DNA of 64,000 nucleotides from Thermoanaerobacter pseudethanolicus ATCC 33223 (lineage in GTDB: Bacteria; Bacillota; Thermoanaerobacteria; Thermoanaerobacterales; Thermoanaerobacteraceae), in NCBI RefSeq assembly GCF_000019085.1, contig NC_010321.1, positions 2,057,001 through 2,121,000 of the forward strand, read 5' to 3'. Each line of letters begins with the position of its first letter. Within the stretch, counting starts at the first letter, position 1. The position numbers and the translations under genes were made by a program. Below, piece after piece: positions 29,310 to 51,802 of the stretch. The notes below the pieces were generated by a model. The model was given only the letters and a program-made list of their open reading frames with translations, made no database searches and was not told the DNA's origin.

Positions 29310-29798
29310 ATGGATAAAAGCATGGAGATCCTTGACCTTCTGTGCGAAAACAGCCGTCTTACAGAAAAGCAAATGGCAGCAATCACAGGGCTTAGTGAAG
29401 AAGAAGTTAAAAACACAATAAAAAGTCTTGAGGACAAAAAAGTGTTGTTAAAATACACTGCTCTCGTGGATTGGGAAAAGGCTGGCCGGGAAGTCGTAAC
29501 TGCCCTCATAGATGTAAAAGTAGCACCCCAGCAAGGACTTGGATTTAATGCAATAGCTGAAAGAATATGCCAGTACGAAGAAGTAAAATCAGTTTCCTTA
29601 ATTTCCGGAACTTACGACCTTTCCGTTGAAGTAGAAGGTAAAACAATGAAAGAAATAGCCTTCTTTGTCGCTGAAAGACTTGCCCCCATTGATGGCGTAT
29701 TAAGCACTACCACACATTTTATTTTAAAAAGATATAAAAAAGACGGAGTTTTTTATGAAGAAGGACAAGACGACAAAAGATTGGTGATAACACCATGA
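29310..29798 (+). CDS. Lrp/AsnC-family transcriptional regulator
   Basis: This 162-residue regulator has an N-terminal helix-turn-helix (LDLLCENSRLTEKQMAAITG) and a C-terminal RAM ligand-binding domain (VVTALIDVKVAPQQG, then SLISGTYDLSVEVEG). It overlaps the following aminotransferase gene by 4 bases. The pair suggests local control of amino-acid metabolism by an amino-acid effector, but neither the effector nor the targets can be read from sequence. Confidence 0.9.
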   Translation: MDKSMEILDLLCENSRLTEKQMAAITGLSEEEVKNTIKSLEDKKVLLKYTALVDWEKAGREVVTALIDVKVAPQQGLGFNAIAERICQYEEVKSVSLISGTYDLSVEVEGKTMKEIAFFVAERLAPIDGVLSTTTHFILKRYKKDGVFYEEGQDDKRLVITP

Positions 29799-30961
29799 AT
29801 ACAGACAAATACATATCCAACGTAGTAAAAAGTATTCCACCGTCCGGAATCAGAAAATTTTTTGACCTTGTGACTAATTCAAAAGACATAATATCACTGG
29901 GAGTTGGCGAACCAGATTTTGTAACTCCGTGGGAAATAAGAAAAGAAGGCATTAACGCACTAGATAGAGGTAGCACAACATACACCTCAAACTTAGGCTT
30001 GCCCGAACTTAGAATGGCCATATCCTATTTCTTAAAAACTCATTATAATTTAACCTATGACCCTGAAAAAGAAATAATGGTAACTATTGGTGCTAGTGAA
30101 GCCATTGACCTTGCTCTGCGAGCTCTTTTAAATGACGGTGACGAAGTCTTAGTTCCTGAACCTAGCTATGTTTCATATGCCCCCTGTGTAACTTTGACAA
30201 GAGGCATCCCTGTATTTGTTCCTACTGATGAAAAAAACAATTTTATACTAACCCCTGATGACCTAAAATCAAAAATAACCTCGAAAACAAAAGCATTAAT
30301 TCTTCCTTACCCCAATAACCCTACAGGTGCTATCATGAAAAAAGAAGAATTAGAAGAAATTGTAAACATAATAATCGAGCATGATTTAATAGTAATTTCT
30401 GATGAAATATATAGTGAATTGACTTATGAAGGAAGACACGTAAGCATAGCCTCACTTCCGGGCATGAAAGAAAGGACAATACTTATAAACGGTTTTTCTA
30501 AAGCTTTTGCCATGACAGGTTGGAGACTTGGATATATTGCAGCAGAACACGGATTCATTGAAGCGATGAATAAAATCCATCAGTACACAACTATATGCGC
30601 TCCAATAACAGCACAATATGCAGCTATAAAGGGTATATATCAATGTGAAGAAGACATAGTAAAAATGAGAGAAACATATGATAAGAGAAGGAAATTTATT
30701 GTAAACGGATTTCGCGAAATAGGTTTTGACTGCTTTGAGCCAAAAGGAGCTTTCTATATTTTCCCGTCAATAAAAAAGACGGGTATGACTTCACAGGAAT
30801 TTTGTGAAAAACTCTTAAAAGAAGAAAAAGTAGCTGTAGTACCAGGAGACGCATTTGGCCCAAGCGGTGAAGGATTTATTCGTGTATCATACGCATATTC
30901 TCTAGATAAAATAGCAAGAGCGCTTGAAAGAATAGAAAATTTTGTAAAGAGAATATTGTAA
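29795..30961 (+). CDS. PLP aminotransferase, class I/II
   Basis: This 388-residue fold-type I aminotransferase has GVGEPDFVTPWEIRKEGI at the N-terminus, YPNNPTGAIMKKEE in the middle, and the PLP lysine in NGFSKAFAMTGWRLGYIA near residue 234. RVSYAYS near the end carries the Arg that binds the substrate carboxylate. Relatives include alanine, aspartate and aromatic aminotransferases; the specific substrate is not resolved. It is translationally coupled to an Lrp-family gene and followed by a hairpin at 31005-31031. Confidence 0.9.
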   Translation: MNTDKYISNVVKSIPPSGIRKFFDLVTNSKDIISLGVGEPDFVTPWEIRKEGINALDRGSTTYTSNLGLPELRMAISYFLKTHYNLTYDPEKEIMVTIGASEAIDLALRALLNDGDEVLVPEPSYVSYAPCVTLTRGIPVFVPTDEKNNFILTPDDLKSKITSKTKALILPYPNNPTGAIMKKEELEEIVNIIIEHDLIVISDEIYSELTYEGRHVSIASLPGMKERTILINGFSKAFAMTGWRLGYIAAEHGFIEAMNKIHQYTTICAPITAQYAAIKGIYQCEEDIVKMRETYDKRRKFIVNGFREIGFDCFEPKGAFYIFPSIKKTGMTSQEFCEKLLKEEKVAVVPGDAFGPSGEGFIRVSYAYSLDKIARALERIENFVKRIL

Positions 30962-31003
30962 AGGAATAACATCTGACATATCGCAAAATGTTTTTAATGT
31001 AAA

Positions 31004-31321
31004 AAGGAATCCTTATATCAAAAGGATTCCTCAGTTTGTTGACAAAGCAAAAATTTTTTAAAATAGGATATTTTGCATCGTCACTCCGATGTTCCAAAGC
31101 GACAAAACTAAGCTCGACCTTCGGGTTCCGGCAGGGTCCCGGGCACATTCGACCTCCTGTCTCAGGTGCCCGCCTCCGCCATCCTTGGCTTCGGCCCTGC
31201 CTCCGCCCTCGGTCTCGCTAAGTTTTGTTAACGCTTTGTCACAAGTCGTTCCTTATGCAAAATATCCTATTTCCGAAAGTTTGTATACAGTCTAAGGAAT
31301 CCTTATATCAAAAGGATTCCT
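31004..31321. repeat. GC-rich foldback flanked by identical 28-bp hairpin repeats
   Basis: An identical 28-base sequence, itself a hairpin (AGGAATCCT / AGGATTCCT), occurs at 31004-31031 and 31294-31321. Between them lies a nested foldback. Perfect 18-base arms AAATAGGATATTTTGCAT at 31061-31078 pair with 31255-31272. Imperfect arms at 31095-31119 pair with 31211-31238. Inner GC-rich pairings join GGCAGGG with CCCTGCC and CGGGCAC with GTGCCCG. The core is strikingly GC-rich for this genome and has no convincing ORF. It could be a non-autonomous mobile element or a structured RNA. The rest of 30962-31378 shows nothing else. Confidence 0.75.
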
Positions 31322-31378: not shown

Positions 31379-32527
31379 TTATTCCATAAAAACCTTTCCC
31401 TCTATTATTGTCATATAAACAGTCAAATCATTGTTTAGCACAACTATATCTGCATCTTTCTCAACTTCTATGCTCCCTTTTCTATCATCTACTCCAATTG
31501 CTTTTGCAGGATTTAAAGAGGCCATCTTGCAGGCTTCAAAAAGTGGTACTCCAAGAGAAGTAATATTCTTTACAGCTTTATCTAACGTTAAAGTACTTCC
31601 TGCTAATGAACCACTTTCTAATCTTGCTTCTCCATTTTTTACAAATACCTTTTGCCCTCCAAGTTTATATTCTCCGTCTCCCAATCCGCAAGCAGACATT
31701 GCATCTGATATAAGTATCACTTTGTCTGTTCCTTTTATTTTAATCAAAAGCTTTACTGAAGCAGGGTGTGTGTGTATAAAATCTACAATTACTTCACTGT
31801 ATATTCTGTCGTCTAAAAATACTTCCCCTAATGCACCAGGTTCCCTATGATGTAGCCCTTTCATGCCATTATAAGTGTGAACCGCAATTGTAGCACCATG
31901 CTCTACTCCATTTTTCATCTCCTCATAAGTGGCATTTGTATGTCCCAAGGATACTTTTACACCCTTTTTAGTGACATGTTCTACAAAGCTTCCATCCGGG
32001 TCTTTTTCAGGTGCTAATGCAATTACTTTTATGTTACCTCCCGCTATTTCCAAGAACTCGTCAAATAAGTTTTTATCAGGTGGTATTATATATTTTTCAT
32101 CCTGTGCTCCTTTGTGTTCTTTGCTTATAAAAGGTCCCTCAACATATGCCCCTAAAATTTGTGCTCCAGCCGTCTTCTTTTTCATCGTCTCATTTATGTT
32201 TTTAAGAGCATTTAGGATATAGGGTATATCCATTGTCATAGTAGTAGGACAAAAAGAAGTCACTCCATGTTTTGCAAGATGAATTGAAATAGCATTTAAT
32301 GCTTCATAAGTAGCATCCATTGTATCATGTCCAACACCGCCGTGAATATGTATGTCTATAAAGCCAGGCACTATTTTTTTGCCTTTTAAATCAATTACTT
32401 CTGCATCATTAGTACTTAAATTTTTACCTATACTTGAAATTTTCCCATTAGAAATTAATAAATCTCCATTATATATTATCTCATTCTGTGTATATATTTC
32501 ACCATGTTTTAATAAAAGGTTTTTCAT
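31379..32527 (-). CDS. nagA: N-acetylglucosamine-6-phosphate deacetylase
   Basis: This 382-residue amidohydrolase removes acetate from GlcNAc-6-phosphate in amino-sugar catabolism and cell-wall recycling. Visible metal and substrate motifs are FIDIHIHGGVGHDTMDA, YVEGPF, SLGHTNATYEEM, HTYNGMKGLHHREPG and the catalytic Asp in LISDAMSACGLGDG. The start is the ATG at 32525-32527 behind GGAAGGAAG, not the in-frame GTG three codons earlier. It lies downstream of broken nagZ and acetyltransferase remnants on the same strand, suggesting an original muropeptide or chitin-sugar recycling operon. Confidence 0.93.
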   Translation of the reverse strand: MKNLLLKHGEIYTQNEIIYNGDLLISNGKISSIGKNLSTNDAEVIDLKGKKIVPGFIDIHIHGGVGHDTMDATYEALNAISIHLAKHGVTSFCPTTMTMDIPYILNALKNINETMKKKTAGAQILGAYVEGPFISKEHKGAQDEKYIIPPDKNLFDEFLEIAGGNIKVIALAPEKDPDGSFVEHVTKKGVKVSLGHTNATYEEMKNGVEHGATIAVHTYNGMKGLHHREPGALGEVFLDDRIYSEVIVDFIHTHPASVKLLIKIKGTDKVILISDAMSACGLGDGEYKLGGQKVFVKNGEARLESGSLAGSTLTLDKAVKNITSLGVPLFEACKMASLNPAKAIGVDDRKGSIEVEKDADIVVLNNDLTVYMTIIEGKVFME

Positions 32528-32565
32528 GCAAATCACTTCCTTCCAATAACAACTTGTCTTTTATT

Positions 32566-32764
32566 TCAATTCTTTTTATACACTGTGTATTTTTTCCAAA
32601 TTTTGCACCCCAGTCTTGAATAAAAATCCACAAATTCAGTCCAATCTATCACCACATTTCTAATTCCTCTATTATACAAAAAGTACATGCCAGCCTGAAC
32701 AATTGCCAACCCCAATCCAACACCTTTTTGAATTTTTAAACATTCCATATCTTCTTTTCATGTT
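32566..32764 (-). pseudogene. C-terminal remnant of a GNAT acetyltransferase
   Basis: The last about 60 codons of a GNAT-family protein remain open. They include GVGLGLAIVQAGMYFLYNRG, the acetyl-CoA-site helix, and NVVIDWTEFVDFYSRLGCKI, a typical end for Firmicute GNAT proteins. The N-terminal part is missing. Sequence immediately upstream in the same direction belongs to a nagZ-like gene in another frame, so a deletion seems to have joined the two. Confidence 0.7.
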
Positions 32765-33149
32765 TTCGATACTATAAAAAAGCTCTTTACCTGCTATCTC
32801 CCCTATTTTATATGCATTTTCAGGATTGTTTGTAGCTCCTATAGCCATATTACCTGGCAAGTAAGTGGCATCTTTATAAATTCTCGTAACCATTCCACCT
32901 TCTTGGTCAATAGCAATTAAAGCTGGAATACCGGTATGCTTTATCATATTCATTTGGATATTATTACATAAACTTTGGAAGTTGTACTTTATCTTTTACA
33001 TTTCGAGAAAATAAAATCACATTACCGATTTTATACTCACTAATCAGCTCCTCAATATGGTCATCATAAATCGGCAATGGAAAGCCAATCATTAGTATCT
33101 GACCTATTTTTTCTTCCAGTGTCATGTCTTTAATCCCCATAATCTTCAA
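32765..33149 (-). pseudogene. nagZ: N-terminal remnant of beta-N-acetylhexosaminidase (GH3)
   Basis: The first about 60 codons (DMTLEEKIGQILMIGFPLP, then EYKIGNVILFSRNVKDK) match the start of GH3 NagZ enzymes. A one-base frameshift near 32975-32985 moves the reading into a second frame that continues MIKHTGIPALIAIDQEGG, TRIYKDATYLPGNMAIGA and NAYKIGEIAGKEL. Homology then stops at about 32765, where the GNAT remnant begins. Only about 130 of the usual 350-550 codons remain, without the catalytic domain end, so it is non-functional. Confidence 0.8.
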
Positions 33150-34096: not shown

Positions 34097-35314
34097 ATGT
34101 CACTATTGACAAAAGAACAATTAAGAAATTTCATTAGTGAAAACAATATTCAATCTATTCCAGACCTTTATACATCATTAAAAAACCTTTTTAAAGATAC
34201 TATTCAAGAAATGCTTGAAGCAGAACTTTCAACAGAACTTGGCTACGAAAGATATGACAAAAAAGACAAAGATACTCAAAATTCAAGAAATGGCTATACT
34301 CAAAAGACGGTAAAAACTCAATTTGGTGAGATGGAAATTGATATTCCAAGAGACAGACAAGGAGAATTTGAACCTAAAATAGTTCCAAAATACAAAAGAG
34401 ACATATCAGGAATTGAAGAAAAAGTAATAGCTCTATATGCAAGAGGAATGTCAACAAGAGATATTCATGACCAGATAAAAGACCTGTATGGAATAGAACT
34501 ATCTGCAGAAATGGTAAGCAAAATAACCGAAAGAATAGTACCAGAAATAAAAGAATGGCAATCAAGGCCATTAGAAAAGATATACACTTTCATATTTATG
34601 GATGCCATCCATTACAAAGTAAGAACAGACGGTCATATTATCAATAGAGCAGCTTATGTAGTATTAGGGGTAACGATAGAAGGCATAAAAGATGTATTAG
34701 GGATTTGGATTGGAGAAAATGAGAGTTCAAGATTCTGGCTTGGAGTATTAAATGAGCTAAAGAACAGAGGAGTAGAAGATGTTATAGTATTTTCTGTAGA
34801 TGGATTAACAGGGATAAAAGAAGCAATACAAGCAGCATTTCCAAAATCAGAGATACAAAGATGTATAATACATCAATTAAGGAACTGCTTCAAATATGTG
34901 TCATATAAACACCTTAAAGAATTCAGTAAAGATTTTAAAGCAGTATATCAATCAGCTAATGAAGAAATAGCAAGGGATGAATTTGAGAAATTAAAAAACA
35001 AATGGCAGAATCTATATCCTTATGCCATAAAGAGTTGGGAGAATAACTGGGATGTATTAAGTCCATTTTACAAATTCCCTGAAGAAGTAAGGAAAATAAT
35101 GTATACAACAAACATAATTGAAGGATTCCACAGGCAGTTAAGGAAAGTTACAAAATCAAAAACAATATTTCCATCTGATGAAGCATTAGAAAAAATGCTA
35201 TACTTAGTAACAATGAATGTATTAAAGAAATGGACAGTGAGGTATAAAAACTGGGATATAGTATTAAATCAATTAATCATAATGTATCCTGGAAGACTTG
35301 AAAAATACTTATAG
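34097..35314 (+). CDS. IS256-family transposase
   Basis: This 405-residue mutator-type DDE transposase shows family marks: NSRNGYTQKTVKTQFGEMEI, IPRDRQGEFEPKIVPKYKR, IFMDAIHYKVR with the first catalytic Asp, VFSVDGLTGIKEAI with the second, CIIHQLRNC (the C/D(2)H-type motif), and NIIEGFHRQLRKVTKSK with the Glu. Full length suggests an intact enzyme. The start follows AAGGAGG. Confidence 0.95.
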   Translation: MSLLTKEQLRNFISENNIQSIPDLYTSLKNLFKDTIQEMLEAELSTELGYERYDKKDKDTQNSRNGYTQKTVKTQFGEMEIDIPRDRQGEFEPKIVPKYKRDISGIEEKVIALYARGMSTRDIHDQIKDLYGIELSAEMVSKITERIVPEIKEWQSRPLEKIYTFIFMDAIHYKVRTDGHIINRAAYVVLGVTIEGIKDVLGIWIGENESSRFWLGVLNELKNRGVEDVIVFSVDGLTGIKEAIQAAFPKSEIQRCIIHQLRNCFKYVSYKHLKEFSKDFKAVYQSANEEIARDEFEKLKNKWQNLYPYAIKSWENNWDVLSPFYKFPEEVRKIMYTTNIIEGFHRQLRKVTKSKTIFPSDEALEKMLYLVTMNVLKKWTVRYKNWDIVLNQLIIMYPGRLEKYL

Positions 35315-35551: not shown

Positions 35552-37183
35552 CGAGTAGGAGCTGAATAATTATTTTATTCAGCGTCCTCTCACACCACCG
35601 TACGTACCGTTCGGTATACGGCGGTTCATTAGGAATTGTGTACAATTAGATATCTTTGGGATAAACTCTTATAACCTATGCTTTCAAAGTATTTATTTGT
35701 AAGAGTCTTATTTAGGATTGGGCTATTGGATATTCTCCAGTAGCCTTTCCTTGTATTGGCGTATTCCCAGGCTTTTTGTTCTTCTACTCCTAGTTTTACT
35801 AAGTTATCATGCTTCGTTTTTATCTTCTTCCATTGTTTCCATATACATGCCCTTAGTCTTCGCCTTATCCATTCGTCAAGGGTTTTCATTATGCTTTTCG
35901 CGTCTGCTAATCCAAAATAGTTGACCCATCCTGTTGTTATTTGATTTAGTCTTTTTATTCTGTTTTCCATGCTTATTCCCTTGTTCCGATTGGTTATTTC
36001 TCTTACTTTTTCCTTAAACCTTTTGATGGATTTTTCATGGATTCTTATTCTTACTTCGTTTTCTTTTGTGTAGAATGAAAATCCAAGAAATTTTCTTCTC
36101 CATGGTCTATCTACAGCACTTTTTGCTTCGTTGACTTTTAGTTTTAATTTGCTTTCTATGAATTTCTTTATGCTTTTCATTACTCTGTTTCCTGCAGACC
36201 TGCTTTTTACATATATGTTGCAGTCATCTGCATATCGGCAGAATTTATGCCCTCGTTTCTCAAGTTCTTTGTCTAGTTCGTCCAACATTATGTTTGCTAA
36301 TAGTGGACTTAATGGCCCTCCTTGGGGTGTCCCTTCTTCTGTTGATACTTTGATTCCGTTTATCATTACTCCTGATTCTAGGTATCTTCGTATTAACTTT
36401 AGTACTCTTTTGTCTCCTATCCGCTTTTCTAGTTTGGACATTATTATGTCGTGGTTTACTCTGTCAAAGAACTTTTCTAAGTCCATATCTACAACCCATG
36501 TGTATCCTTCATTTATGTATGCTTCTGCGGCTTTTATTGCGTCTTTTGCACTGCGTCCTGGTCTGAATCCATAACTGCTATCAGAAAATGTATGGTTGTA
36601 GACTCTATTTAGTATTTGGGCTATTGCTTGTTGTATTAACCTATCTAGTGCTGTAGGTATTCCTAGTAGTCTTTTTCCTCCATCTGGTTTGGGAATTTCT
36701 ACTCTTCGCACTGGTTGTGGTTTGTATTTCCCCTCCAGCAGTTGTTGTTTTATGGTTGGCCAGTTTTCTTTGAGATACGGTAGAAGTTCATCTACTTCCA
36801 TCCCATCGACTCCATGGCTTCCTTTATTTGCAACAACGCGCTTGTATGCTGCTCTCATGTTTCCTCGTTCTACTATCATTTCAAGCATCTTGCTGGTATA
36901 TCTTTGTACCTCGTTTCTTCCATCTCTTGACGCCGATGATATACTATGCACTTCCGTTGTCTTTTGAAATTCCATTTCTCTATCCAACGGATAGCCTCTT
37001 TGTTGAGTTGTCTGCAGTCTTTGCATATCTTTCGAGTCCATAAGATTTCCAAAACCTCCTAACGTTCGGTCCTTCCTTATCTATTCATGTCTAGATAAGT
37101 ACTATGACCTCTGCTGACTTCTCAAGGTTCAGCCATACATCACTGCATGGGTTGTCACTTCAGATTTTACTCCCATGACTTAT
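35552..37183 (-). mobile_element. Group IIC intron copy 1, 3' part (split by transposon A)
   Basis: Reading leftward this holds the end of domain III, the reverse transcriptase gene, and domains V and VI. Domain V is CCGCCGTATACC-GAAC-GGTACGTACGGTGG. The 5' part of the same intron lies at 40397-40614, separated by the 3,213-bp transposon A. The 3' end reads CTACTCGGG where copies 2 and 3 read CTACTCGAT, so the exact 3' boundary is uncertain. About 61 bases present in copy 2 are missing at the transposon junction, so this copy is unlikely to splice. Confidence 0.85.
35629..37041 (-). CDS. ltrA: Group II intron reverse transcriptase/maturase, copy 1
   Basis: This 470-residue class C reverse transcriptase has AYKRVVANKGSHGVDGM at the start of the RT domain, SYGFRPGRSAKDAI, DMDLEKFFDRVNHD, TPQGGPLSPLLANIMLDELD, and the catalytic FCRYADDCNIYV. 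Maturase domain X follows (RKFLGFSFYTKE, then WVNYFGLADAKS). There is no HNH endonuclease domain, as expected for group IIC. It is nearly identical to copy 2. The protein is intact even though its intron RNA is interrupted, so it could act on other copies. Confidence 0.93.
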   Translation of the reverse strand: MDSKDMQRLQTTQQRGYPLDREMEFQKTTEVHSISSASRDGRNEVQRYTSKMLEMIVERGNMRAAYKRVVANKGSHGVDGMEVDELLPYLKENWPTIKQQLLEGKYKPQPVRRVEIPKPDGGKRLLGIPTALDRLIQQAIAQILNRVYNHTFSDSSYGFRPGRSAKDAIKAAEAYINEGYTWVVDMDLEKFFDRVNHDIIMSKLEKRIGDKRVLKLIRRYLESGVMINGIKVSTEEGTPQGGPLSPLLANIMLDELDKELEKRGHKFCRYADDCNIYVKSRSAGNRVMKSIKKFIESKLKLKVNEAKSAVDRPWRRKFLGFSFYTKENEVRIRIHEKSIKRFKEKVREITNRNKGISMENRIKRLNQITTGWVNYFGLADAKSIMKTLDEWIRRRLRACIWKQWKKIKTKHDNLVKLGVEEQKAWEYANTRKGYWRISNSPILNKTLTNKYFESIGYKSLSQRYLIVHNS

Positions 37184-37395
37184 TGTCAATTCTCAAATTA
37201 AATCTCCAAAGATTTTCAAATTATAATGGCATTTTTTAAGTGCATAAAAGTATTTTTTCTCAAATTATCACAGCCTGATTAAAAATTTTTTTCACTTTTT
37301 AAGAGCATAACCGCCAAAATATGTTAATATCTGTTATTGGCAATTTGGGTTAATTGAAGTATAATAAAAAATGAGAGTAGCGAAAGCTACTACTC

Positions 37396-38196
37396 TCATA
37401 AACTGATTTCATTTTGTGCCTGGTATATTACTTCTTCATCTATTTCTCTTAGCCTTTTAGAATACGCATAGAGAAGAGAAGCCGTTACCAGGTTATTTAT
37501 TATCCTTGGCAGCCCTTTTGTTAGAGAATATATTGCTTCATATGCCGATGGTGTAAATATATCATCCATCACTCCAGCTATTTTCATTCTTGTTTTTATA
37601 TAATCTTGAATTTCTTCTTTTTTTAGCCCTTGCATTACATACTTTATAGAAATTCTTTGCCTTAGTGCACTGTTTACATTCAAGGCTAGTTTGTTTCTTA
37701 TGTGTGGTTGTCCTGAAAGTATCAGTATATACGGGTTTTGAGAATCCATATTAAAGTTAAATATTATTCTCAAATCTTCAAGAACATCATTAGAAACCAG
37801 TTGTATTTCATCTAATATTATGACAGGAGTTATCTTCTGGCTATAGTAAAGTTCTGTTATCGCTCTTTGTATCTGGTGAAAGAGCGTTACTTTTTTGTAT
37901 GAGGGGGTTTCGCCTAAAATCATAGCCAATGCTTGATAGAATTCTCTCACTGTGAGTGTAGATAGAGCAAAGTAACATGGTTTAAATGTAGAACGGTTGA
38001 GGCTTTCAGCATATCTTCTTAATGCGGTAGATTTGCCTGAACCCGCCTCCCCAACGATAAGTCCTATACCCCTTGTTTCTTGTAAATATTTTAGCCTGGC
38101 ATTTAATTCAGCAATGTCTTCACTTATATAAAGGTCATTTACACTTATCTCTTTAGAAAATGGATTAAATTTCATTCCAAAATATTGGGTAAACAT
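37396..38196 (-). CDS. TnsC/TniB-like AAA ATPase of transposon A
   Basis: This 266-residue AAA ATPase of the ExeA/TniB/TnsC type opens FGMKFNPFSKEI. Walker A is VGEAGSGKSTALRRYAE, Walker B VIILDEIQLV, sensor 1 LILSGQPHIRN, and ALRQRISIKYVMQGL carries an arginine-finger region. In Tn7-like systems the ATPase picks target DNA and activates the transposase. The start is the ATG at 38194-38196 behind AAGAGGTG. The longer reading from 38229 overlaps the transposase end and lacks a ribosome site. The protein is identical to the copy in transposon B. Confidence 0.88.
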   Translation of the reverse strand: MFTQYFGMKFNPFSKEISVNDLYISEDIAELNARLKYLQETRGIGLIVGEAGSGKSTALRRYAESLNRSTFKPCYFALSTLTVREFYQALAMILGETPSYKKVTLFHQIQRAITELYYSQKITPVIILDEIQLVSNDVLEDLRIIFNFNMDSQNPYILILSGQPHIRNKLALNVNSALRQRISIKYVMQGLKKEEIQDYIKTRMKIAGVMDDIFTPSAYEAIYSLTKGLPRIINNLVTASLLYAYSKRLREIDEEVIYQAQNEISL

Positions 38197-38212
38197 TGTA
38201 AACACCTCTTTT

Positions 38213-39538
38213 TTAATCAATGATATCATTAAAGGATATTACTGGGGGATTAGGTTTTGCAGCAAAATCCACAGTATCTTCATTTTCGCTTACAACCTTT
38301 CTGTCTTCGATATATTCTACAGGAATTTTAGCATTCTCATGAAAATTTACCTTATACGCTTCCCCCACTTTTTTGCCTTCATGAAAAAGTAAAAGGGGTG
38401 TATTATCCTTAAGCCACTGCGGGTCATATCTGACTTCTAAGCGCATACCTTTAAACTTTTCTTCTGTTTCGTAAAGTATATTTTCCACTTTAAGTGTGGC
38501 ATCTTTGTTTACTTTACGATTTACTCTTATGAGAAAACATTCATTCAACATATCTATGTCACCACACATATTTACCCTTGATATTTGAGACATGAAAAAA
38601 TCTAAAGGACTCATGCCAATACTGCTATGTTCTTTTCGGTTGTAATCATCCTCCAGCCATTTAAAAAACATCATATTGAGCTCATCTATACTCTTTATGG
38701 ATGTAGGATCTATTGTGCTTAAAAATCTCATTCTCACCGTATGAAAGAATCTTTCTATTTTCCCTTTTGAATGAGGTGAAAAGGGCTCAGCATGAATAAG
38801 AGATGTACCTAATGATGCACATATATATTCAAATTGAGTGCTTCTATATATCTTTCCATTGTCAGTGTAGAGCATTTTGGGTATTCCCCTTCTTAGCACT
38901 GCTTCTTTAAATGAGTCTCTTAAAGCTAAAAAATTCTGGGTATAGTAAAAGTGAGCATAGGTACACAGCCTTGAAGCATCATCTATATATGCAATAAGAT
39001 ACGTTTGTCTCTTTGTTTTACCTTCTTTAATATATGGCCCATACATGACATCAGTTTGCCACAGTTCATTGATGTATTCATGGGAAAACCTCTTTGTTTT
39101 ACCCTCTTTTTCTTTATCTAAAGATTTTACAGGAATGTTTTTCAAAAACCTATAGAATGTCGAAATGGATACTTTATCCGGTGATATTATTCCCTCTCCT
39201 ATCAATGTCTCATAAAGAAGTTTGTTTGGCATTTCAGGATGTTCAAGCTTCTTTTGCTTTATTCTCTCTGAAAGTTCAAAGTCTATCTTTCTGTATTTGC
39301 CTCTGTCGCTTCGATAACCCGGCTTTAACGCTTCTATACCGCCTCTTAAATACTGATATAGCCACCCTCTAAGTGTCTTGGGAGTATATCTTCTCATTCC
39401 AAGATAAGGTATCTCAATAGGTTTATCGGAAAGAGCATCAAAATATTCTTTCTGATTTTTTACCTGTCCGTTTAGCACCGGACTTATCAGTGAAAATCTC
39501 TTTAATGCTATAGCTTCTCTCGCTTTTTCATCAAGCAT
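38213..39538 (-). CDS. TnsB/TniA/Mu-like DDE transposase of transposon A
   Basis: This 441-residue transposase has N-terminal helix-turn-helix domains (PYLGMRRYTPKTLRGWLYQY) and an rve integrase core. The first catalytic Asp is in ELWQTDVMYGPYI, the second in MLYTDNGKIYRST, and the Glu in PHSKGKIERFFHTVRMRF. A beta-barrel-like C-terminal region follows (RVNRKVNKDATLKVENILYE), as in Mu-transposase and IS481-like proteins. It is followed by the AAA gene with a short gap and preceded by the zinc-ribbon gene. It differs from copy B at a handful of residues, all in the N-terminal half. Confidence 0.9.
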   Translation of the reverse strand: MLDEKAREAIALKRFSLISPVLNGQVKNQKEYFDALSDKPIEIPYLGMRRYTPKTLRGWLYQYLRGGIEALKPGYRSDRGKYRKIDFELSERIKQKKLEHPEMPNKLLYETLIGEGIISPDKVSISTFYRFLKNIPVKSLDKEKEGKTKRFSHEYINELWQTDVMYGPYIKEGKTKRQTYLIAYIDDASRLCTYAHFYYTQNFLALRDSFKEAVLRRGIPKMLYTDNGKIYRSTQFEYICASLGTSLIHAEPFSPHSKGKIERFFHTVRMRFLSTIDPTSIKSIDELNMMFFKWLEDDYNRKEHSSIGMSPLDFFMSQISRVNMCGDIDMLNECFLIRVNRKVNKDATLKVENILYETEEKFKGMRLEVRYDPQWLKDNTPLLLFHEGKKVGEAYKVNFHENAKIPVEYIEDRKVVSENEDTVDFAAKPNPPVISFNDIID

Positions 39539-39674
39539 TTATATGTTCCCCCTTCACTTTTTTGATTTCTTAATCGTAATTTTAGCTCATACCTGGGGGA
39601 CATTAAAGGAAAAAGTTATGTTGCTAAGAAAAAATCAAAATTTTTATTTAAATCTTTCGGATTTAATGCTAAAA

Positions 39675-40271
39675 TTATGTGAGAGAGGCCAGAAATGATT
39701 TTTGGCAATGAGCATAAAACCGTTGGGAGAAGAGTGGTACAATGCTTATTATGTCCAAAATCTCTCTGGCCCTCTCTCTTTGTGAGTCAGTCTCAGATAA
39801 CTTTATGTAAGGGTCTATTTGCCTTAATCCGTATATGATAAAACTTAAATTATTCATTATCCTTTTGGTGTAAAAATATATATGCTGTCTTGAAAATAGT
39901 ATGGTGGGAAAGTTTCTTTTTAAGTCACTTATGAAAGAACTGAGAGTTTTTTCTCTTGTAAGTGTCTCTTTTAAAGACTTTACAATCATATTGAAAGAAT
40001 ACTGAAAATGGGGAAGACAGAAATCAGGAAGGTAGGAAAGAGTTCTTTTACACACAGGACATATATATCTTCTTATGGCTATTTTTATACAGTTGGATCC
40101 GTCTAAATAGTAACGGTAATAAAACCCGTGCTTTTTTAGTTTTACTCTACACTTGCAATCGGGATAAGGACATCTATCTGGCGGGGCAGGGAAATTGTAA
40201 TCTTTGCCCTTTCGTAAATATTCTTCAATGTTATCAACATGGAAAATTATTTGCATAAGTAACCTCTCCAA
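39675..40271 (-). CDS. Zinc-ribbon protein (DUF6431-like) of transposon A
   Basis: This 198-residue protein has two zinc pairs, DRCPYPDCKCRVKLKKHGFY and RRYICPVCKRTLSYLPDFCL, followed by a helical region with a possible helix-turn-helix (SFISDLKRNFPTILFSRQHI). It resembles DUF6431 proteins found beside transposases. As third partner of a TnsB-TnsC pair it could fill the target-selection role played by TniQ/TnsD, which also have zinc motifs, but that is inference. A 20-base-arm palindrome lies directly upstream of its start, and ATTGGAGAGG is the ribosome site. Confidence 0.75.
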   Translation of the reverse strand: MERLLMQIIFHVDNIEEYLRKGKDYNFPAPPDRCPYPDCKCRVKLKKHGFYYRYYLDGSNCIKIAIRRYICPVCKRTLSYLPDFCLPHFQYSFNMIVKSLKETLTREKTLSSFISDLKRNFPTILFSRQHIYFYTKRIMNNLSFIIYGLRQIDPYIKLSETDSQRERAREILDIISIVPLFSQRFYAHCQKSFLASLT

Positions 40272-40273
40272 TT

Positions 40274-40331
40274 AAAATTAATGCTAAAGGAATCTGAAAA
40301 AATTTTTTTAAATTCCTTTAGCATTAATTTT
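40274..40331 (-). promoter_or_regulatory. Palindromic leader before the zinc-ribbon gene (copy A)
   Basis: Perfect 20-base arms (40274-40293 and 40312-40331; core TTAATGCTAAAGGAAT) flank an 18-base AT spacer, immediately upstream of the ribosome site. A further TTAATGCTAAA occurs near 39663, before the transposase. This is an operator or protective hairpin in the mobile element's right end. The same arms are kept in copy B while the spacer differs. Confidence 0.7.
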
Positions 40332-40396
40332 ATCACAAGATTATTTAATCTGAAAAATTTTATCGGTTTTGGGCTAAATTAATTTGAGAAATGACA

Positions 40397-40614
40397 ATAT
40401 GGGATTCGGGTAGTGTTGGACTTCGTTTTGTTACGCAAACTCATCCATCCCAATTCAGCCTCTTATCTGGTTCTTGTTCATCAGACCGAGATTTTGCCTT
40501 AAGCTTCCTTCAGATTCCACCTCACGATGGACACCCTTGCTCTTGGCTAGTGGTTCCCACTACCAAGCCCACAGCGGACTTTCACCGCCTAGTTATCGCC
40601 CATGCCGGGCGCAC
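40397..40614 (-). mobile_element. Group IIC intron copy 1, 5' part
   Basis: This 218-base segment begins, reading leftward, GTGCGCCCGGCATGGGCGA and matches the first 217 bases of intron copy 2 almost exactly. It ends where transposon A begins. Its 5' end directly abuts the 3' end of intron copy 2, so the two introns are in tandem. With 35552-37183 it makes up one interrupted intron. Confidence 0.88.
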
Positions 40615-42526
40615 ATCGAGTAGGAGCTGAATAATTATTTTATTCAGCGTCCTCTCACACCACCGTACGTACCGTTCGGTATACGGCGGTTCATTAGGAA
40701 TTGTGTACAATTAGATATCTTTGGGATAAACTCTTATAACCTATGCTTTCAAAGTATTTATTTGTAAGAGTCTTATTTAGGATTGGGCTATTGGATATTC
40801 TCCAGTAGCCTTTCCTTGTATTGGCGTATTCCCAGGCTTTTTGTTCTTCTACTCCTAGTTTTACTAAGTTATCATGCTTCGTTTTTATCTTCTTCCATTG
40901 TTTCCATATACATGCCCTTAGTCTTCGCCTTATCCATTCGTCAAGGGTTTTCATTATGCTTTTCGCGTCTGCTAATCCAAAATAGTTGACCCATCCTGTC
41001 GTTATTTGATTTAGTCTTTTTATTCTGTTTTCCATGCTTATTCCCTTGTTCCGATTGGTTATTTCTCTTACTTTTTCCTTAAACCTTTTGATGGATTTTT
41101 CATGGATTCTTATTCTTACTTCGTTTTCTTTTGTATAGAATGAAAATCCAAGAAATTTTCTTCTCCATGGTCTATCTACAGCACTTTTTGCTTCGTTGAC
41201 TTTTAGTTTTAATTTGCTTTCTATGAATTTCTTTATGCTCTTCATTACTCTGTTTCCTGCAGACCTGCTTTTTACATATATGTTGCAGTCATCTGCATAT
41301 CGGCAGAATTTATGCCCTCGTTTCTCAAGTTCTTTGTCTAGTTCGTCCAACATTATGTTTGCTAATAGGGGACTTAATGGCCCTCCTTGGGGTGTCCCTT
41401 CTTCTGTTGATACTTTGATTCCGTTTATCATTACTCCTGATTCTAGGTATCTTCGTATTAACTTTAGTACCCTTTTGTCTCCTATCCGCTTTTCTAGTTT
41501 GGACATTATTATGTCGTGGTTTACTCTGTCAAAGAACTTTTCTAAGTCCATATCTACAACCCATGTGTATCCTTCATTTATGTATGCTTCTGCGGCTTTT
41601 ATTGCGTCTTTTGCACTGCGTCCTGGTCTGAATCCATAACTGCTATCAGAAAATGTATGGTTGTAGACTTTATTTAGTATTTGGGCTATTGCTTGTTGTA
41701 TTAGTCTGTCTAGTACTGTAGGTATTCCTAGTAGTCTTTTTCCTCCATCTGGTTTGGGAATTTCTACTCTTCGCACTGGTTGTGGTTTGTATTTCCCCTC
41801 CAGCAGTTGTTGTTTTATGGTTGCCCAGTTTTCTTTGAGATACGGTAGAAGTTCATCTACTCCCATCCCATCGACTCCATGGCTTCCTTTATTTGCAACA
41901 ACGCGCTTGTATGCTGCTTCCATGTTCCCTCGTTCTACTACCATTTCAAGCATCTTGCTGGTATATCTTTGTACCTCGTTTCTTCCATCTCTTGACGCCG
42001 ATGATATACTATGCACTTCCGTTGTCTTTTGAAATTCCATTTCTCTATCCAACGGATAGCCTCTTTGTTGAGTTGTCTGCAGTCTTTGCATATCTTTCGA
42101 GTTCATAAGATTTCCAAAACCTCCTAATGTTCGGTCCTTCCTTATCTATTATTGTCTAGATAAGTACTATGACCTCTGCTGACTTCTCAAAGTTCAGCCA
42201 TACATCTCTGTATGGGTTGTCATTTCAGATTTTACTTCCATGACTTATCCTTGAGACCTCCCCGGGTAAGAACGATAGCTTTCATCTCATATATCTGCCA
42301 GATTTACTGTATGGGATTCGGGTAGTGTTGGACTTCGTTTTGTTACGCAAACTCATCCATCCCAATTCAGCCTCTTATCTGGTTCTTGTTCATCAGACCG
42401 AGATTTTGCCTTAAGCTTCCTTCAGATTCCACCTCACGATGGACACCCTTGCTCTTGGCTAGTGGTTCCCACTACCAAGCCCACAGCGGACTTTCACCGC
42501 CTAGCTATCGCCCATGCCGGGCGCAC
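40615..42526 (-). mobile_element. Group IIC intron copy 2, complete
   Basis: This 1,912-bp intron runs from GTGCGCCC at 42526 to CTACTCGAT at 40615. It has about 420 bases of structured 5' domains, a reverse transcriptase gene in domain IV, domain V (from about 40680), and domain VI with its bulged-A-type helix. Its 5' splice site lies a few bases after the T-run of the rbs operon terminator, the typical target of group IIC introns. It looks complete and potentially active. Confidence 0.92.
40694..42106 (-). CDS. ltrA: Group II intron reverse transcriptase/maturase, copy 2
   Basis: This 470-residue class C reverse transcriptase/maturase carries FCRYADDCNIYV and the same domain layout as copy 1. 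It differs by a few substitutions (for example MNSKD for MDSKD at the N-terminus, NMEAAYK for NMRAAYK, and IPTVLDRL for IPTALDRL). It lies in domain IV of an apparently intact intron. AGGAGGT precedes the ATG. It lacks an endonuclease domain, so mobility would rely on single-stranded DNA or replication forks, as known for IIC introns. Confidence 0.94.
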   Translation of the reverse strand: MNSKDMQRLQTTQQRGYPLDREMEFQKTTEVHSISSASRDGRNEVQRYTSKMLEMVVERGNMEAAYKRVVANKGSHGVDGMGVDELLPYLKENWATIKQQLLEGKYKPQPVRRVEIPKPDGGKRLLGIPTVLDRLIQQAIAQILNKVYNHTFSDSSYGFRPGRSAKDAIKAAEAYINEGYTWVVDMDLEKFFDRVNHDIIMSKLEKRIGDKRVLKLIRRYLESGVMINGIKVSTEEGTPQGGPLSPLLANIMLDELDKELEKRGHKFCRYADDCNIYVKSRSAGNRVMKSIKKFIESKLKLKVNEAKSAVDRPWRRKFLGFSFYTKENEVRIRIHEKSIKRFKEKVREITNRNKGISMENRIKRLNQITTGWVNYFGLADAKSIMKTLDEWIRRRLRACIWKQWKKIKTKHDNLVKLGVEEQKAWEYANTRKGYWRISNSPILNKTLTNKYFESIGYKSLSQRYLIVHNS

Positions 42527-42528
42527 GT

Positions 42529-42561
42529 AAAAAAGCCCGCCCAAAACACGGCAGGCTTTTT
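42529..42561 (-). terminator. Rho-independent terminator of the ribose operon
   Basis: Reading leftward: AAAAAGCCTGCC, loop, GGCGGGCTTTTTT. The stem has one G-T pair, and a T-run follows it. It ends the rbs operon after rbsB. Intron copy 2 begins two or three bases beyond the T-run. Confidence 0.92.
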
Positions 42562-42608
42562 AGATTCGCATTCGTTTTTCTATTTTCCTTATCTGTATTG
42601 ATATCATA

Positions 42609-43532
42609 TCACTTCGTTATAAGTTTAAGCTCAGCTGGTATAAATTTTTCTACCTTTTCACCTTTTAGATATTTGTCAGCCATTTCTACTCCAAGAGAAC
42701 CTATTAAAGCTGGTTGCTGAGCAATCGTTGCAGCCATTTTGCCATCTTTTATAGCTTTCAACGCATCATCTGTCCCATCGAATCCAACTACTAAAATTCC
42801 TTGCCTATTTGCACTCTCTATTGCCTTTATTGCACCTAATGCCATTTCATCATTTTGCGCAAATACTGCATCAATTTTAGGTTGGGCTTGAAGGATATTT
42901 TCCATTACTGATAAACCTTTTGAACGATCAAAATCAGCAGCTTGTTTTGCTATAATTTTTATATCTGGATATTTAGCGATAGCTTCATCAAATCCTTTGC
43001 CTCTATCTCTTGCTGCGGAAGTACCTGGTATGCCTTCAAGTTCTACTACGTTTCCTTTCCCATTTAGCGTTTTGGCAATAAACTCTGCTGCCATTTCTCC
43101 ACCTTTTACGTTATCTGAAGCTATGTGACAAATAACATCTCCACCATTTGCAGACCTGTCCAAAGTAATAACTGGTATATTTTTGCTATTTGCTTCTTTT
43201 ATCGCATTAACTACAGCATCGCTATCTACAGGATTTATAAGCAAAACGTCTACTTTTTGTTGAATTAAATCTTCTACATTAGAAAGTTCTTTTGAAGAGT
43301 CATTCTGTGAATCTGCTACTATTAATTTATAGCCTAATTCTTTTGCCTTAGCTTCTGCTCCATCTTTCAATGTTACAAAAAATGGATTATTAAGTGTCGA
43401 TATTACCAAGCCTATAGTCTTTTCTTCTTTAGCATTTGAAGTATTATTGGTATTACCTGTACTGCATCCAGCAATTAACGCAACAGGTAAAATAAATGTT
43501 AATAAAAGGAACAAAATTTTTGATTTTCTCAT
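42609..43532 (-). CDS. rbsB: Ribose ABC transporter substrate-binding lipoprotein RbsB
   Basis: This 307-residue periplasmic-binding-type protein is anchored as a lipoprotein: the signal [19 protein letters not shown] has the lipobox Cys near residue 23. The mature part is a type I sugar-binding fold with [40 protein letters not shown] and [20 protein letters not shown], close to ribose-binding proteins. It is the last gene of the rbs operon, followed by a terminator. It captures ribose outside the cell for RbsC/RbsA. Confidence 0.94.
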
Positions 43533-43614
43533 AATTCAACTCTCCCCTTTTAATTAAATTTTTAATTTTTAAAACTTTTTGTTTTTCAATTAAAACCTTC
43601 CTAAAACACCCCCT

Positions 43615-44571
43615 TTATCTACTTTCTTTTTTGTCTAATGCTATAGCAAGTAATATTACTGCACCTTTAGCTATAAGCTGATAAAAAGGCGAAACGTTAA
43701 GTAAATTTAAGCCATTATTTAAAATGCCTATTATCAAAGCACCTATCAGAGTACCTATTACTCCCCCTTCGCCACCTGATAAACTTGTACCTCCAAGTAC
43801 AACCGCAGCTATGGCATCAAGTTCAGCACCCTGTCCCGCTGTTGGAGCTGCGGAATTTAACCTTGAAGTAATTATTAAACCACTTATTGCTGCTAAAAAG
43901 CCACTTAAAGAATACACAAATAGAATTATATTGTTAGTATTAATACCAGCCAATTTAGCAGCCTGTATATTGCCCCCTGTAGCATAGACATATCTTCCAA
44001 GTCTATTATTCTTTAAAATGTAATAACCTATCGCAAAGATAAGAACCGTAAGAATTATTGGTACAGGTATCGGCCCAATATAACCGTTGCCAATATAACC
44101 AAAAGCCGCACCTAAACCCGTTATTGGTTGTCCATTAGTATATACAAGTGTTAGACCTCTTGCTACTGTCATCATGGCAAATGTCGCAATAAAGGGTGGT
44201 ATATTCCATCTAATTATGACAAAACCATTAAAAAATCCTAAACCGGTACCTATTATTAAACCTGCTAATACCGCTATAATTAATGGAGAACCGTCTTTTA
44301 ACATGCCAGCTGTAATTGCACTTGAAAAGGCTAATATAGAACCTACAGATAAGTCTATTCCACCTGTTAATATTACAAACGTCATACCCACAGCCATTAT
44401 TGCATTTAGGGAAGTCTGTCTTAAAACATTTGTAAGATTATAATAATCTAAAAATCTTGGTGATAATATTGAAAATACAACGATTAACCCTACTAAGCCT
44501 ATCAAAGATTTTGCTTTGAGTAAAAATTCACTAATATTTATTTTTGTTACTTTTTCTTCCGGTAAATTCAA
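43615..44571 (-). CDS. rbsC: Ribose ABC transporter permease RbsC
   Basis: This 318-residue permease of the BPD_transp_2 family has about eight to ten membrane helices. VGMTFVILTGGIDLSVGSIL and LGGTSLSGGEGGVIGTLIGA are the signature loops of RbsC/XylH-type permeases. It lies one base after rbsA, and the gap of 82 bases to rbsB contains no gene. It forms a homodimer channel for ribose. Confidence 0.94.
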   Translation of the reverse strand: MNLPEEKVTKINISEFLLKAKSLIGLVGLIVVFSILSPRFLDYYNLTNVLRQTSLNAIMAVGMTFVILTGGIDLSVGSILAFSSAITAGMLKDGSPLIIAVLAGLIIGTGLGFFNGFVIIRWNIPPFIATFAMMTVARGLTLVYTNGQPITGLGAAFGYIGNGYIGPIPVPIILTVLIFAIGYYILKNNRLGRYVYATGGNIQAAKLAGINTNNIILFVYSLSGFLAAISGLIITSRLNSAAPTAGQGAELDAIAAVVLGGTSLSGGEGGVIGTLIGALIIGILNNGLNLLNVSPFYQLIAKGAVILLAIALDKKESR

Positions 44572-44572
44572 C

Positions 44573-46063
44573 TCATTCCCCTCCTACAGCTTTTAACATT
44601 ACCTTTTCTTCTGTCGCTTCTTCATGAAGTATTTCGCCTGTTATCCTTCCTTCATGCATTACAATAATTCTATCGCTAATATTCAAAACCTCTGGCAATT
44701 CTGAAGATATTAAAATTATACCAATACCTTGCTTTTTTAAATTATTAATCAATTTATATATTTCATTTTTTGCTCCAACATCAATGCCTCGAGTTGGTTC
44801 ATCAAGAATAATTAATTTAGGATTTGTCAATAAACATTTGGCAATAGCAATTTTTTGTTGGTTTCCTCCACTCAGTTTAGATATTTTTTGATTTATTGAA
44901 GAGGTCTTAATGTTTAATTTTTCAATCATTTGGTTTACTAAATATTTTTCTTTAGAATGGTAAATAGTGCCTATATAATCAGAAATACTTTTTAATGCCG
45001 AAAGTGTCATATTTTCTTTTAAAGTATGCTTTAATATCAAACCGTCATTTTTTCTATCTTCAGATAAATATATTATTCCATTATCAATAGCATCTTTTGG
45101 ATTATTTATCTTTAGCTCCTCATTTTCAAGATAAATTTTACCTGAGGTTTTCTTATAAAAGCCAAATATTGTTTTGGCCACTTCAGTTCTTCCTGCACCT
45201 ATCAAACCAGCAACCCCTACTACTTCACCTTTTCTGACTGTGAAATTAATATTTTCAAATAAACCCTTCACACTAAGATTTTCTACTCGCAATATTTCCT
45301 CTCCCAGCGGAACAGATTCACGAGGATATTGTTCTTTTAGTTCTCTTCCAACCATCATTGTAACTAACTCATCACGTGTAACTTCGTTAATTTTACCTTG
45401 AGAAATAAAGCGTCCATCTCTTAAAACAATATAGTCATCACAAATTTCAAAAATTTCATTCATTCTGTGAGATATATAAATAATAGATCTGCCTTCTGAT
45501 TTAAGCGATCTTATGACCTCAAATAATTTCTTTGTCTCTGCCTCTGTTAAAGCAGCAGTTGGTTCATCCATTACTAATATCTCAGCATCCATCAATAAAC
45601 TTCTAGCTATTTCAACCATTTGTTGTTCTCCAACACTCAAGTACTTTACCAGTCTATTAACGTTTATATTCATACCCAATTCGCTAAGCTTTTTAGCAGC
45701 TTCTTGCTTTATTTTTTTCCAATCTATAACGTTAAATGATTTTAGATATTCCCTCCCTAAAAAAATATTTTCAGCAACACTAAGTGATGGTATAAGATTG
45801 AGCTCTTGATGAATCATAGCAATGCCATATTTTTCAGCATCTTTGACATTTCTTATATTTACTTCTTCCCCTTTTATATAAATACTTCCTTCATCTTTCT
45901 CATAAATGCCGCAGAGAATTTTCATCAAAGTTGACTTTCCTGCCCCATTTTCACCTAATAAAGCTAAGACATGACCTTTATAGAGCGTTAAGCTCACATT
46001 ATCCAGAACTTTAACATTGCCAAACTTTTTCGTTATATTCCTCATCTCTAAAACGGGTTCCAA
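44573..46063 (-). CDS. rbsA: Ribose ABC transporter ATPase RbsA
   Basis: This 496-residue ATPase has two fused nucleotide-binding domains. The first has Walker A LLGENGAGKSTLMKILCG, signature LSVGEQQMVEIARSL and Walker B ILVMDEPTAALT. The second has the degenerate Walker A AGLIGAGRTEVAKTIFG, usual for this family, with signature LSGGNQQKIAIAKCL and LIILDEPTRGIDVG. It energises ribose import with RbsC and RbsB. It is transcribed from the rbsR promoter. Confidence 0.95.
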   Translation of the reverse strand: MEPVLEMRNITKKFGNVKVLDNVSLTLYKGHVLALLGENGAGKSTLMKILCGIYEKDEGSIYIKGEEVNIRNVKDAEKYGIAMIHQELNLIPSLSVAENIFLGREYLKSFNVIDWKKIKQEAAKKLSELGMNINVNRLVKYLSVGEQQMVEIARSLLMDAEILVMDEPTAALTEAETKKLFEVIRSLKSEGRSIIYISHRMNEIFEICDDYIVLRDGRFISQGKINEVTRDELVTMMVGRELKEQYPRESVPLGEEILRVENLSVKGLFENINFTVRKGEVVGVAGLIGAGRTEVAKTIFGFYKKTSGKIYLENEELKINNPKDAIDNGIIYLSEDRKNDGLILKHTLKENMTLSALKSISDYIGTIYHSKEKYLVNQMIEKLNIKTSSINQKISKLSGGNQQKIAIAKCLLTNPKLIILDEPTRGIDVGAKNEIYKLINNLKKQGIGIILISSELPEVLNISDRIIVMHEGRITGEILHEEATEEKVMLKAVGGE

Positions 46064-46086
46064 AAATTATTCCCCCCTTTGGATTG

Positions 46087-46479
46087 TTAAAATTCCACAC
46101 CTGACTCTAAAATAATATTTGCATATGGCTTATATTCACCAGTCCTAATAATAGCTCTAGCGTTTTTTGACATTGCCTTTAAATCTTCATGGCTAATAAT
46201 TATTAGCTTTTCTCCAAATAGCTCGAGAAGGTATAGGTATAAATCGTTATTTTTATCTATCATTTCTTTCGCAATATATGCTTTTTCTACTCCCAACTCA
46301 GTAAGTACCGTATTTAATGTATCTTTAAAACTCGGTATCCCTTTTGTTAAAGCAATATCAATTCTTTTAACACCATCTGGTATAGGTAATCCACTATCAG
46401 CAATCACCAACAAATCTGTATGCCCTAATCTTGCAACAACTTCTGAAATTTCACTATTCAGCAAATATGTCTTTTTCAT
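46087..46479 (-). CDS. rbsD: D-ribose pyranase RbsD
   Basis: This 130-residue mutarotase interconverts pyranose and furanose forms of ribose before phosphorylation. The motifs [36 protein letters not shown] and the final [20 protein letters not shown] are those of RbsD. It overlaps rbsK by 4 bases. Confidence 0.95.
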
Positions 46480-47405
46480 TTGTTATAACCCCTTTCTTTA
46501 ATAAATTTTTCTACCTCATCTCTATAAGGCAAGGATGACTGAGCGCCTTCTTTAGTAACCGTTAATGCTGCTACGTATGTAGCAAATTCTATTGCACTTT
46601 CAATGTTCTTCCCTTCACTTAATGCCACTGCTAATGCTCCTGTAAATGAATCACCTGCTGCTGTTGTATCAACAGCAGTAACTTTGATCGCATCAAATAG
46701 TTTTTCTGTATCCTTATTGATAAAAAAGCTTCCTTTTTCTCCAATAGTTGTTATAACGTTTTGAACTCCTTTGTCCAGCAAATATTTTGAGGCCTTTTTT
46801 ATATCTGCAATTGTTTCTGTTTTACTTCTAGATAAAAGAGCTAATTCTGTTTCATTTGGAGTTAAAATATAAACCTTTTCTAAGAGCGTATCAGGCAATT
46901 CACATGCTGGTGCAGGATTTAATATGACTTTTATACCCTTTCGGTAACATAAATCCACTACAAATTCTACTGTCTCAACTGGTATTTCTAACTGAATTAC
47001 ACACATTTTTGCTTCATCAAAAATATCTTCGTGTTTTTCTATTTGCTCTATATTAAGCCTTTTATTTGCTCCCTGATAAACAACTATGTTATTTTCTCCT
47101 CTTTCACTCACATTAATATAAGCTGTACCCGTCGGTATTTCGTAATCAAATTCTATTCCTTTAATGTCAACGCTATCATTTTTTAAATCCTCATATAATT
47201 TCTTACCATATTCATCATTTCCCACTCTGCCGATCATAAAGACCGTTCCACCCAACCTTGCAATTGATACCGCTTGATTTGCGCCTTTACCACCGCCGTA
47301 ATTTTTTAAATCATAAGCAATAACTGTCTCACCAACTACAGGAATATGCGGAACTCGTATCACAACGTCCATATTAATACTTCCAACAACAACTATCTTC
47401 TCCAT
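46476..47405 (-). CDS. rbsK: Ribokinase RbsK
   Basis: This 309-residue PfkB-family kinase makes ribose-5-phosphate for the pentose phosphate pathway. Substrate motif [18 protein letters not shown] lies near residue 36, and the catalytic anion hole and Asp are in [20 protein letters not shown] near residue 247. It lies 16 bases after rbsR and is coupled to rbsD. Confidence 0.95.
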
Positions 47406-47420
47406 CTTTTTTTACCACCT

Positions 47421-48425: not shown

Positions 48426-48450
48426 AAATTCATCACCTATTAAATTTTAG

Positions 48451-48508: not shown

Positions 48509-48603
48509 TAATAAAAATAAAAATTTTTTATAACGGTTAGTTGTATAATTAAATGCAACAGATAAAAGAATAGAAACCATAGTGAAAATCGTGTATGATA
48601 TAG

Positions 48604-49802
<1,199 letters not shown>

Positions 49803-51799: not shown

Positions 51800-51802
51800 T
51801 TT

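Follow-up and report, generated by a model that had tools for sequence, protein, structure and literature searches.

Some insertion sequences of the IS1182 family choose their targets by structure. IS1272 and TnSha1 target terminators and other stem-loops in this way and then remove them (PMC5678879, PMC4923244), and the family is said to include palindrome-targeting members (Siguier et al., cited by PMC4923244). Wan et al., in their work on IS1272, also considered an alternative, given only as a possibility (pathway b of their figure 13), whereby the stem-loop would be duplicated entire if its 5′ feet were the points of joining (PMC5678879, PMC4923244). Bacterial MITEs are short, non-coding and dispersed, carry terminal inverted repeats and depend on an IS (reviewed in PMC10969869). 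Finally, Rfam lists TwoAYGGAY RNA (RF01731; Weinberg et al., 2010, PMC2864571) among the cis-regulatory RNAs, with no function assigned, and the hypothesis that it binds CsrA has been published (PMC4333381).

The locus described here lies in a 64,000-nucleotide stretch of Thermoanaerobacter pseudethanolicus ATCC 33223 (NC_010321.1, positions 2,057,001 to 2,121,000; hereafter the window). Like IS1272 and TnSha1, it involves an IS1182-family transposase and inverted-repeat targets recognized structurally and not by sequence; however, IS1272 deletes its target hairpin without duplication, whereas the Thermoanaerobacter element doubles it. The element has the traits of bacterial MITEs listed above, yet differs from them in duplicating a complete terminator, variable in length, and in having a GC-rich core in common with an Rfam RNA family. 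This core resembles TwoAYGGAY in its full-length covariance match and its two apical GGA loops, but the window copy falls below the gathering threshold and the core is here the cargo of a MITE. We consider it very probable that this MITE is mobilized in trans by an IS1182-family transposase, inserting into palindromes, duplicating the hairpin and carrying TwoAYGGAY-like cargo. Our literature searches found no paper that connects hairpin-duplicating MITEs with TwoAYGGAY or with IS1182; some ISfinder entries may contain an earlier mention of long palindromic repeats.

A dispersed MITE family

The 28-bp sequence AAGGAATCCTTATATCAAAAGGATTCCT is present as an exact direct repeat at 31004–31031 and 31294–31321, and both copies form hairpins. 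Between them, a stretch of 262 bases folds back on itself, with perfect 18-nt arms (31061–31078 pairs with 31255–31272). The GC content of the core is 53–57% (150-bp windows) compared with about 35% in the surroundings. The RNA fold of this segment reaches −133.7 kcal/mol, compared with −70 ± 5 kcal/mol for dinucleotide shuffles (z = −12), and lies about 12 standard deviations under the shuffles whichever strand is taken. The ORF list of the window contains no sizeable ORF inside the 262-bp block; a 90-aa minus-strand ORF (30876–31148) merely overlaps its edge. A scan gave three terminator-like sites in the segment against 0.5 in shuffles. The repeated hairpin with its coordinates and folds, the 18-base perfect arms, the GC-rich core in an AT-rich genome and the lack of a gene had all been noticed in a preliminary description of the sequence, and each of these observations holds. 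The features of the locus are as follows.

29795–30961, plus strand: aminotransferase-like gene (named by inspection), with its stop just before the MITE locus
31004–31031, no strand: left copy of the duplicated target (28-bp TSD), a complete terminator-like hairpin (exact repeat; single at the empty site L091)
31032–31293, plus strand: MITE of 262 bp, CAGTTTGTTGACAAAG ... TTTGTATACAGTCT (about 25 places in its own genome; missing from the orthologous G008 site)
31032–31047, plus strand: terminal repeat, counterpart of IS end TTTGTCAACAAACTG (as reverse complement; 15/15 letters as in 1566-bp IS1182 copies)
31089–31244, minus strand: TwoAYGGAY-like core, a relative of RF01731 (Infernal 36.9 bits, E = 2.4e-4, model positions 1–168 of 168)
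31151–31161, minus strand: apical hairpin 2, GACAGGAGGTC, with a CAGGA loop (GGA at 31155–31157; from the sequence and GGA conservation in 91 copies)
31178–31189, minus strand: apical hairpin 1, GCCAAGGATGGC, with an AAGGA loop (GGA at 31182–31184; same evidence)
31279–31293, plus strand: terminal repeat, counterpart of IS end TTTGTCAACAGTCTG (compared with IS and MITE copies)
31294–31321, no strand: right copy of the duplicated hairpin (exact repeat; empty-site comparison)
31379–32536, minus strand: NagA-like gene (named by inspection), its convergent end beyond the MITE locus

The right end in the window, together with the next base, reads TTTGTATACAGTCTA and differs by two letters from the MITE consensus TTTGTCTACAGTCTG. 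Elsewhere in the window, a short ORF at 32672–32953 resembles part of a β-N-acetylhexosaminidase (NagZ-like) and is possibly a broken gene beside nagA. An IS256/Mutator-like transposase ORF (by inspection) lies near the MITE at 34097–35314, and group II intron parts are spread over 37069–52396 on the minus strand (seven Rfam matches: RF02001, RF01998 and RF00029), accompanied by a reverse-transcriptase ORF at 35629–37041.

Further copies, which the preliminary description suggested looking for, are numerous. A BLAST search of the block against its own 2,362,816-bp genome gave 34 hits, corresponding to about 25 separate copies, full or partial, and many more are found in nine congeners. The block is present in 10/10 genomes of the genus, with 13–76 matches per genome depending on the search, and no MITE copy has sizeable coding capacity. 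It is neither single-copy and unconserved nor part of a known IS remnant: only its ends are common with an IS1182 element, of which it is no deletion derivative. That 31032–31293 is a copy of a non-autonomous transposon (MITE) family is certain, or nearly so.

Two peculiarities of individual copies should be mentioned. In several copies, from several species (L014, L015, L021 and L159), a foldback insert that starts with CCCGGCACTCAARTAAG (ends CTTACTTGAGTGCCGGG) interrupts the MITE core at one position, nested within it. In the genome G006, MITE copies (L201–L216) bear tails, at most 98 bp long, that duplicate flanking sequence of one other site. We rejected transduction of flanks of variable length as their origin, as the true repeat comes after the tail and the lengths stay below about 100 bp; the tails are most likely assembly gap-filling artefacts rather than biology, and G006 was left out of the analysis on their account.

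Duplication of whole hairpins

In its own genome, each MITE copy is flanked on both sides by its own, different terminator hairpin. Our target statistics cover 91 MITE copies from eight genomes. Of these, 79/91 are flanked by direct repeats measuring 15 bp or longer (52 exact), and most of the 12 copies that failed this automatic test still have duplicated hairpins, carrying indels. Among the 72 distinct targets, the repeat is 17–33 bp in length (median 24 bp) and consists of an entire palindrome, in most cases an intrinsic terminator, of unrelated sequence from site to site. The repeat is centred on the dyad of the palindrome (median offset 0, interquartile range 0). The targets have a median MFE of −11.7 kcal/mol, compared with 0.0 in nearby control windows, and 65/72 of them fold below −5 kcal/mol, compared with 7/144 controls. 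Complementarity between mirrored positions is 64–81% across the outer nine positions within the repeat and drops towards background about 5 nt beyond it. The length of the hairpin, found independently, correlates with that of the repeat, although only moderately (r = 0.49), partly because A/T pairs often lengthen the stem past the repeat. At one locus (L166) the duplicated hairpin copies differ by a loop inversion, as though one hairpin had flipped.

Using joined flanks as queries, we found an uninterrupted counterpart in congeners for 6/6 own-genome loci tested. The counterpart of the window site, in G008 (L091), is 98% identical over 403 bp spanning the junction and holds exactly one hairpin, a state for which the preliminary description had proposed to search in relatives. 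The empty sites carry a single hairpin, and the duplication therefore arises from insertion. Both the whole-hairpin target duplication and the empty sites are certain or nearly so. The earlier suggestion of a non-autonomous element whose insertion duplicated a terminator is borne out by about 25 copies in the genome, by the site-specific hairpin duplications, by the single-hairpin empty sites and by an IS with like ends and behaviour (see below). The 72 distinct targets and their empty sites constitute a large natural data set on structure-dependent insertion by a DDE transposase.

The IS1182 partner and a proposed insertion mechanism

An IS of 1560–1568 bp is found in the congeners G001–G003. 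Its intact transposase of about 500 amino acids matches NF033551 (IS1182; E = 9.6e-147, 489.8 bits compared with a cut-off of 270), as well as PF13751, PF05598 and PF01609. The ends of intact copies are CAGACTGTTGACAAA and TTTGTCAACAAACTG, an asymmetric pair identical to that of the MITE; the MITE consensus agrees with the IS at 14–16 of 15–16 letters at both asymmetric ends, to which the similarity is confined. The IS1182-type nature of the MITE ends is certain or nearly so. Most IS copies are flanked by duplicated terminator hairpins, as the MITE is. One copy (L086) lies within the coding palindrome AACTCCATTATGGAGTT of a Cas10-like ORF (type III CRISPR; named by inspection), which indicates that a palindrome is enough. 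Another (L065) has a 6-bp repeat (cttcac) and two (L082 and L066) have no repeat, which points either to a preference for palindromes that is not absolute or to rearrangement of some copies. The sole IS1182 trace in the genome of the window is a decayed remnant (L031), which makes present mobility there doubtful; its right end TTTGTCGTCAATCTG is also found in the intact, hairpin-duplicating copy L278. Judging from these sequences, the MITE is probably transposed in trans by an IS of the clade with CAG...CTG ends.

Whole-hairpin duplications also accompany CAG...CTG-ended IS1182 relatives in Clostridia, Bacilli, Erysipelotrichaceae and Paenibacillus, with further cases in Sutcliffiella (30 bp), Peribacillus (24 bp), Cytobacillus (35 bp) and Enterococcus casseliflavus (19 bp). 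No hairpin duplication was found in the examined IS1182 members with GGGGCTGTCC-type (GGGGC) or AGGAGTCC-type ends, or at the ISKpn6 copy examined; the ends of the ISEfa7 copy examined gave no interpretable pattern. In the transposase tree, in which two CAG-clade rows have reading-frame breaks, a branch supported at 100/100 separates the CAG clade from the other sequences. The IS1182 family, including ISEfa7 and ISKpn6, shares the transposase family of the autonomous partner, whereas whole-hairpin duplication tracks the CAG-ended clade. One Exiguobacterium row of this clade has unlike left and right hairpins, consistent with recombination between copies. In a GGGGC-ended element (L312), a T tract directly follows the right terminal repeat, as would result if the terminator hairpin had been replaced by the IS end.

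Replacement of the stem-loop, as for IS1272, does not describe the Thermoanaerobacter sites, where the hairpin is duplicated and empty sites have one copy. The MITE/IS family instead fits the duplication alternative of Wan et al., an outcome proposed only on paper in the IS1272 literature. The transposase would recognize a hairpin or cruciform at the target, the transposon 3′ ends would be joined to the hairpin 5′ foot on each strand, and gap repair would copy the whole hairpin. A four-way junction brings the feet close to each other for stems of any length, and this geometry would account for a repeat that varies in length with the palindrome and has no fixed stagger. Cruciform-like target recognition is probable. 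As sister clades of one family delete or double like targets, the chemistry is directly testable.

Two other readings of the flanking hairpins have to be weighed. If the hairpins belonged to the element as long composite ends, and not to the target, they would abut it every time, as they do; this reading is refuted by the fact that the hairpin differs at 72 sites while the element ends are constant, and by the one hairpin already carried by the empty site, and we give it practically no credence. Alternatively, insertion could be coupled to transcription, the target being a termination event (an RNA hairpin, a paused polymerase or an R-loop) and not a DNA cruciform. Most targets do resemble terminators with A/T tracts, but the IS copy in the Cas10-like coding palindrome and the symmetry of the repeat about the dyad, and not about the T tract, argue against it, and we regard it as unlikely.

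The insertions change the surroundings of the terminator. The T count in the 8 nt after the hairpin goes from 5.8 before insertion to 2.8 at the proximal copy, which faces the element, while the distal copy retains its T tract. With the tract missing from the proximal hairpin and present at the distal one, we would expect transcription to read through into the element and to terminate behind it, with the element forming a 3′ tail of the transcript. A terminator-duplicating element can in this manner adjoin genes with termination left in place.

A TwoAYGGAY-like core with two GGA loops

The core matches the full RF01731 model on the minus strand (36.9 bits), short of the gathering score of 43; an Rfam search at the gathering threshold does not detect it, and the match is visible only in an E-value search of the short stretch, with its small search space. 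Other Thermoanaerobacter copies score 27–40 bits. Relatives in G023, found with a model of the core, reach 46–60 bits, above the RF01731 gathering score, which copies in G153 and G067 also pass. We aligned the core using copies that have diverged, elements whose ends differ (L022 and L024) and single-copy relatives from the sister genus. In the 54 pairs of the consensus, 95% of cells are paired. Two-sided changes affect 24/54 pairs and 102 cells, compared with 31.7 ± 4.1 in shuffles (0/500 as high), and this signal is lost when the partner is slid by one to three columns. The covariance analysis envisaged in the preliminary description accordingly gave strong covariation, in a relative of RF01731 below the cut-off.

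ANGGA within a hairpin loop is the established recognition element of CsrA/RsmE. Both apical loops read C-A-N-GGA in the 91 Thermoanaerobacter copies, with GGA conserved at 98–100%, and the N before it is among the most variable columns (55–60%). ATGGAT occupies both loops in many copies; in the window copy the loops are AAGGAT and CAGGAG, and ANGGA is found family-wide. In G067 the arms have almost wholly diverged and AGGA is retained in both loops. As sequences, the loops fit CANGGANG, a CsrA-type site, and the genome of the window encodes CsrA next to flagellin (L453; PF02599, E = 1.5e-20), within the 1.66 Mb of it that were searched. The most likely role of the cargo would be that of an RNA hairpin pair serving as a putative binder of a GGA-loop protein such as CsrA. 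A candidate CsrA hairpin would then be placed between the 3′ end of a gene and the duplicated terminator, and be transcribed without harming termination. A mobile CsrA decoy is speculative. The TwoAYGGAY strand is sense relative to the host terminator in 33 cases and antisense in 25, a ratio without clear bias that gives no support for selection on RNA.

The block might instead be a fixed host RNA, either a structured RNA gene or a cis-regulatory RNA, flanked by two terminators by chance. The strong fold, the compensatory changes and the similarity to TwoAYGGAY would suit it, but about 25 dispersed copies, site-specific duplications and empty sites do not, and we hold it to be very improbable. 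A structured RNA, the other possibility raised in the preliminary description, is refuted by the empty sites for the block in its entirety and survives for the cargo only, as a TwoAYGGAY relative with compensatory changes. For this cargo, the covariation could reflect homogenization of the arms at the DNA level, by template switching in quasi-palindromes, and not selection on RNA. The lack of a clear strand bias relative to the terminator and the outer helix, where two-sided changes far exceed one-sided ones, favour such a process, which leaves unexplained, however, the GGA kept beside a highly variable base in the loops and the like loops in genera with diverged arms; we take it seriously while leaning the other way. 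A functional TwoAYGGAY-type RNA as cargo is plausible.

TwoAYGGAY was found in 51/398 genomes of the phylum, often several times per genome, although no more than six candidates were scored in each. In G067 (L371/L478, L479) and G153 (L462, L463, L465 and L466), unrelated genera from two other families of the phylum, copies above the gathering score lie within IS1182-ended, hairpin-duplicating elements of 264–275 bp with CAGACTGTAGACAAA-type ends. No such carrier was seen in G210, G275, G307 and G144, so TwoAYGGAY is not confined to these elements. That many Firmicutes TwoAYGGAY RNAs are cargo of terminator-targeting MITEs, as a mobile double CsrA-binding hairpin acting as a decoy or 3′-UTR handle, is a tentative idea that we consider rather unlikely to hold in full. 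The present findings place an orphan Rfam RNA family on mobile elements and offer a link with CsrA that can be tested.

Other settings of the core were also observed. About 50 TwoAYGGAY elements in G022 and G023 (L326–L349) have quite different ends (TGTAARAAG...GAATGATAGC) and represent a second kind of carrier. In the sister genus g3 (L254–L258) a diverged core is present once per genome; at least four of the genomes have it at a shared locus, downstream of one gene. The core was found in no phage record and in one plasmid record. The latter, a Klebsiella plasmid (L350; NZ_CP061968.1:19591-19711), contains a TwoAYGGAY-like core with 74% identity over 124 bp, which lies inside a long, nearly perfect inverted repeat whose ends are unrelated.
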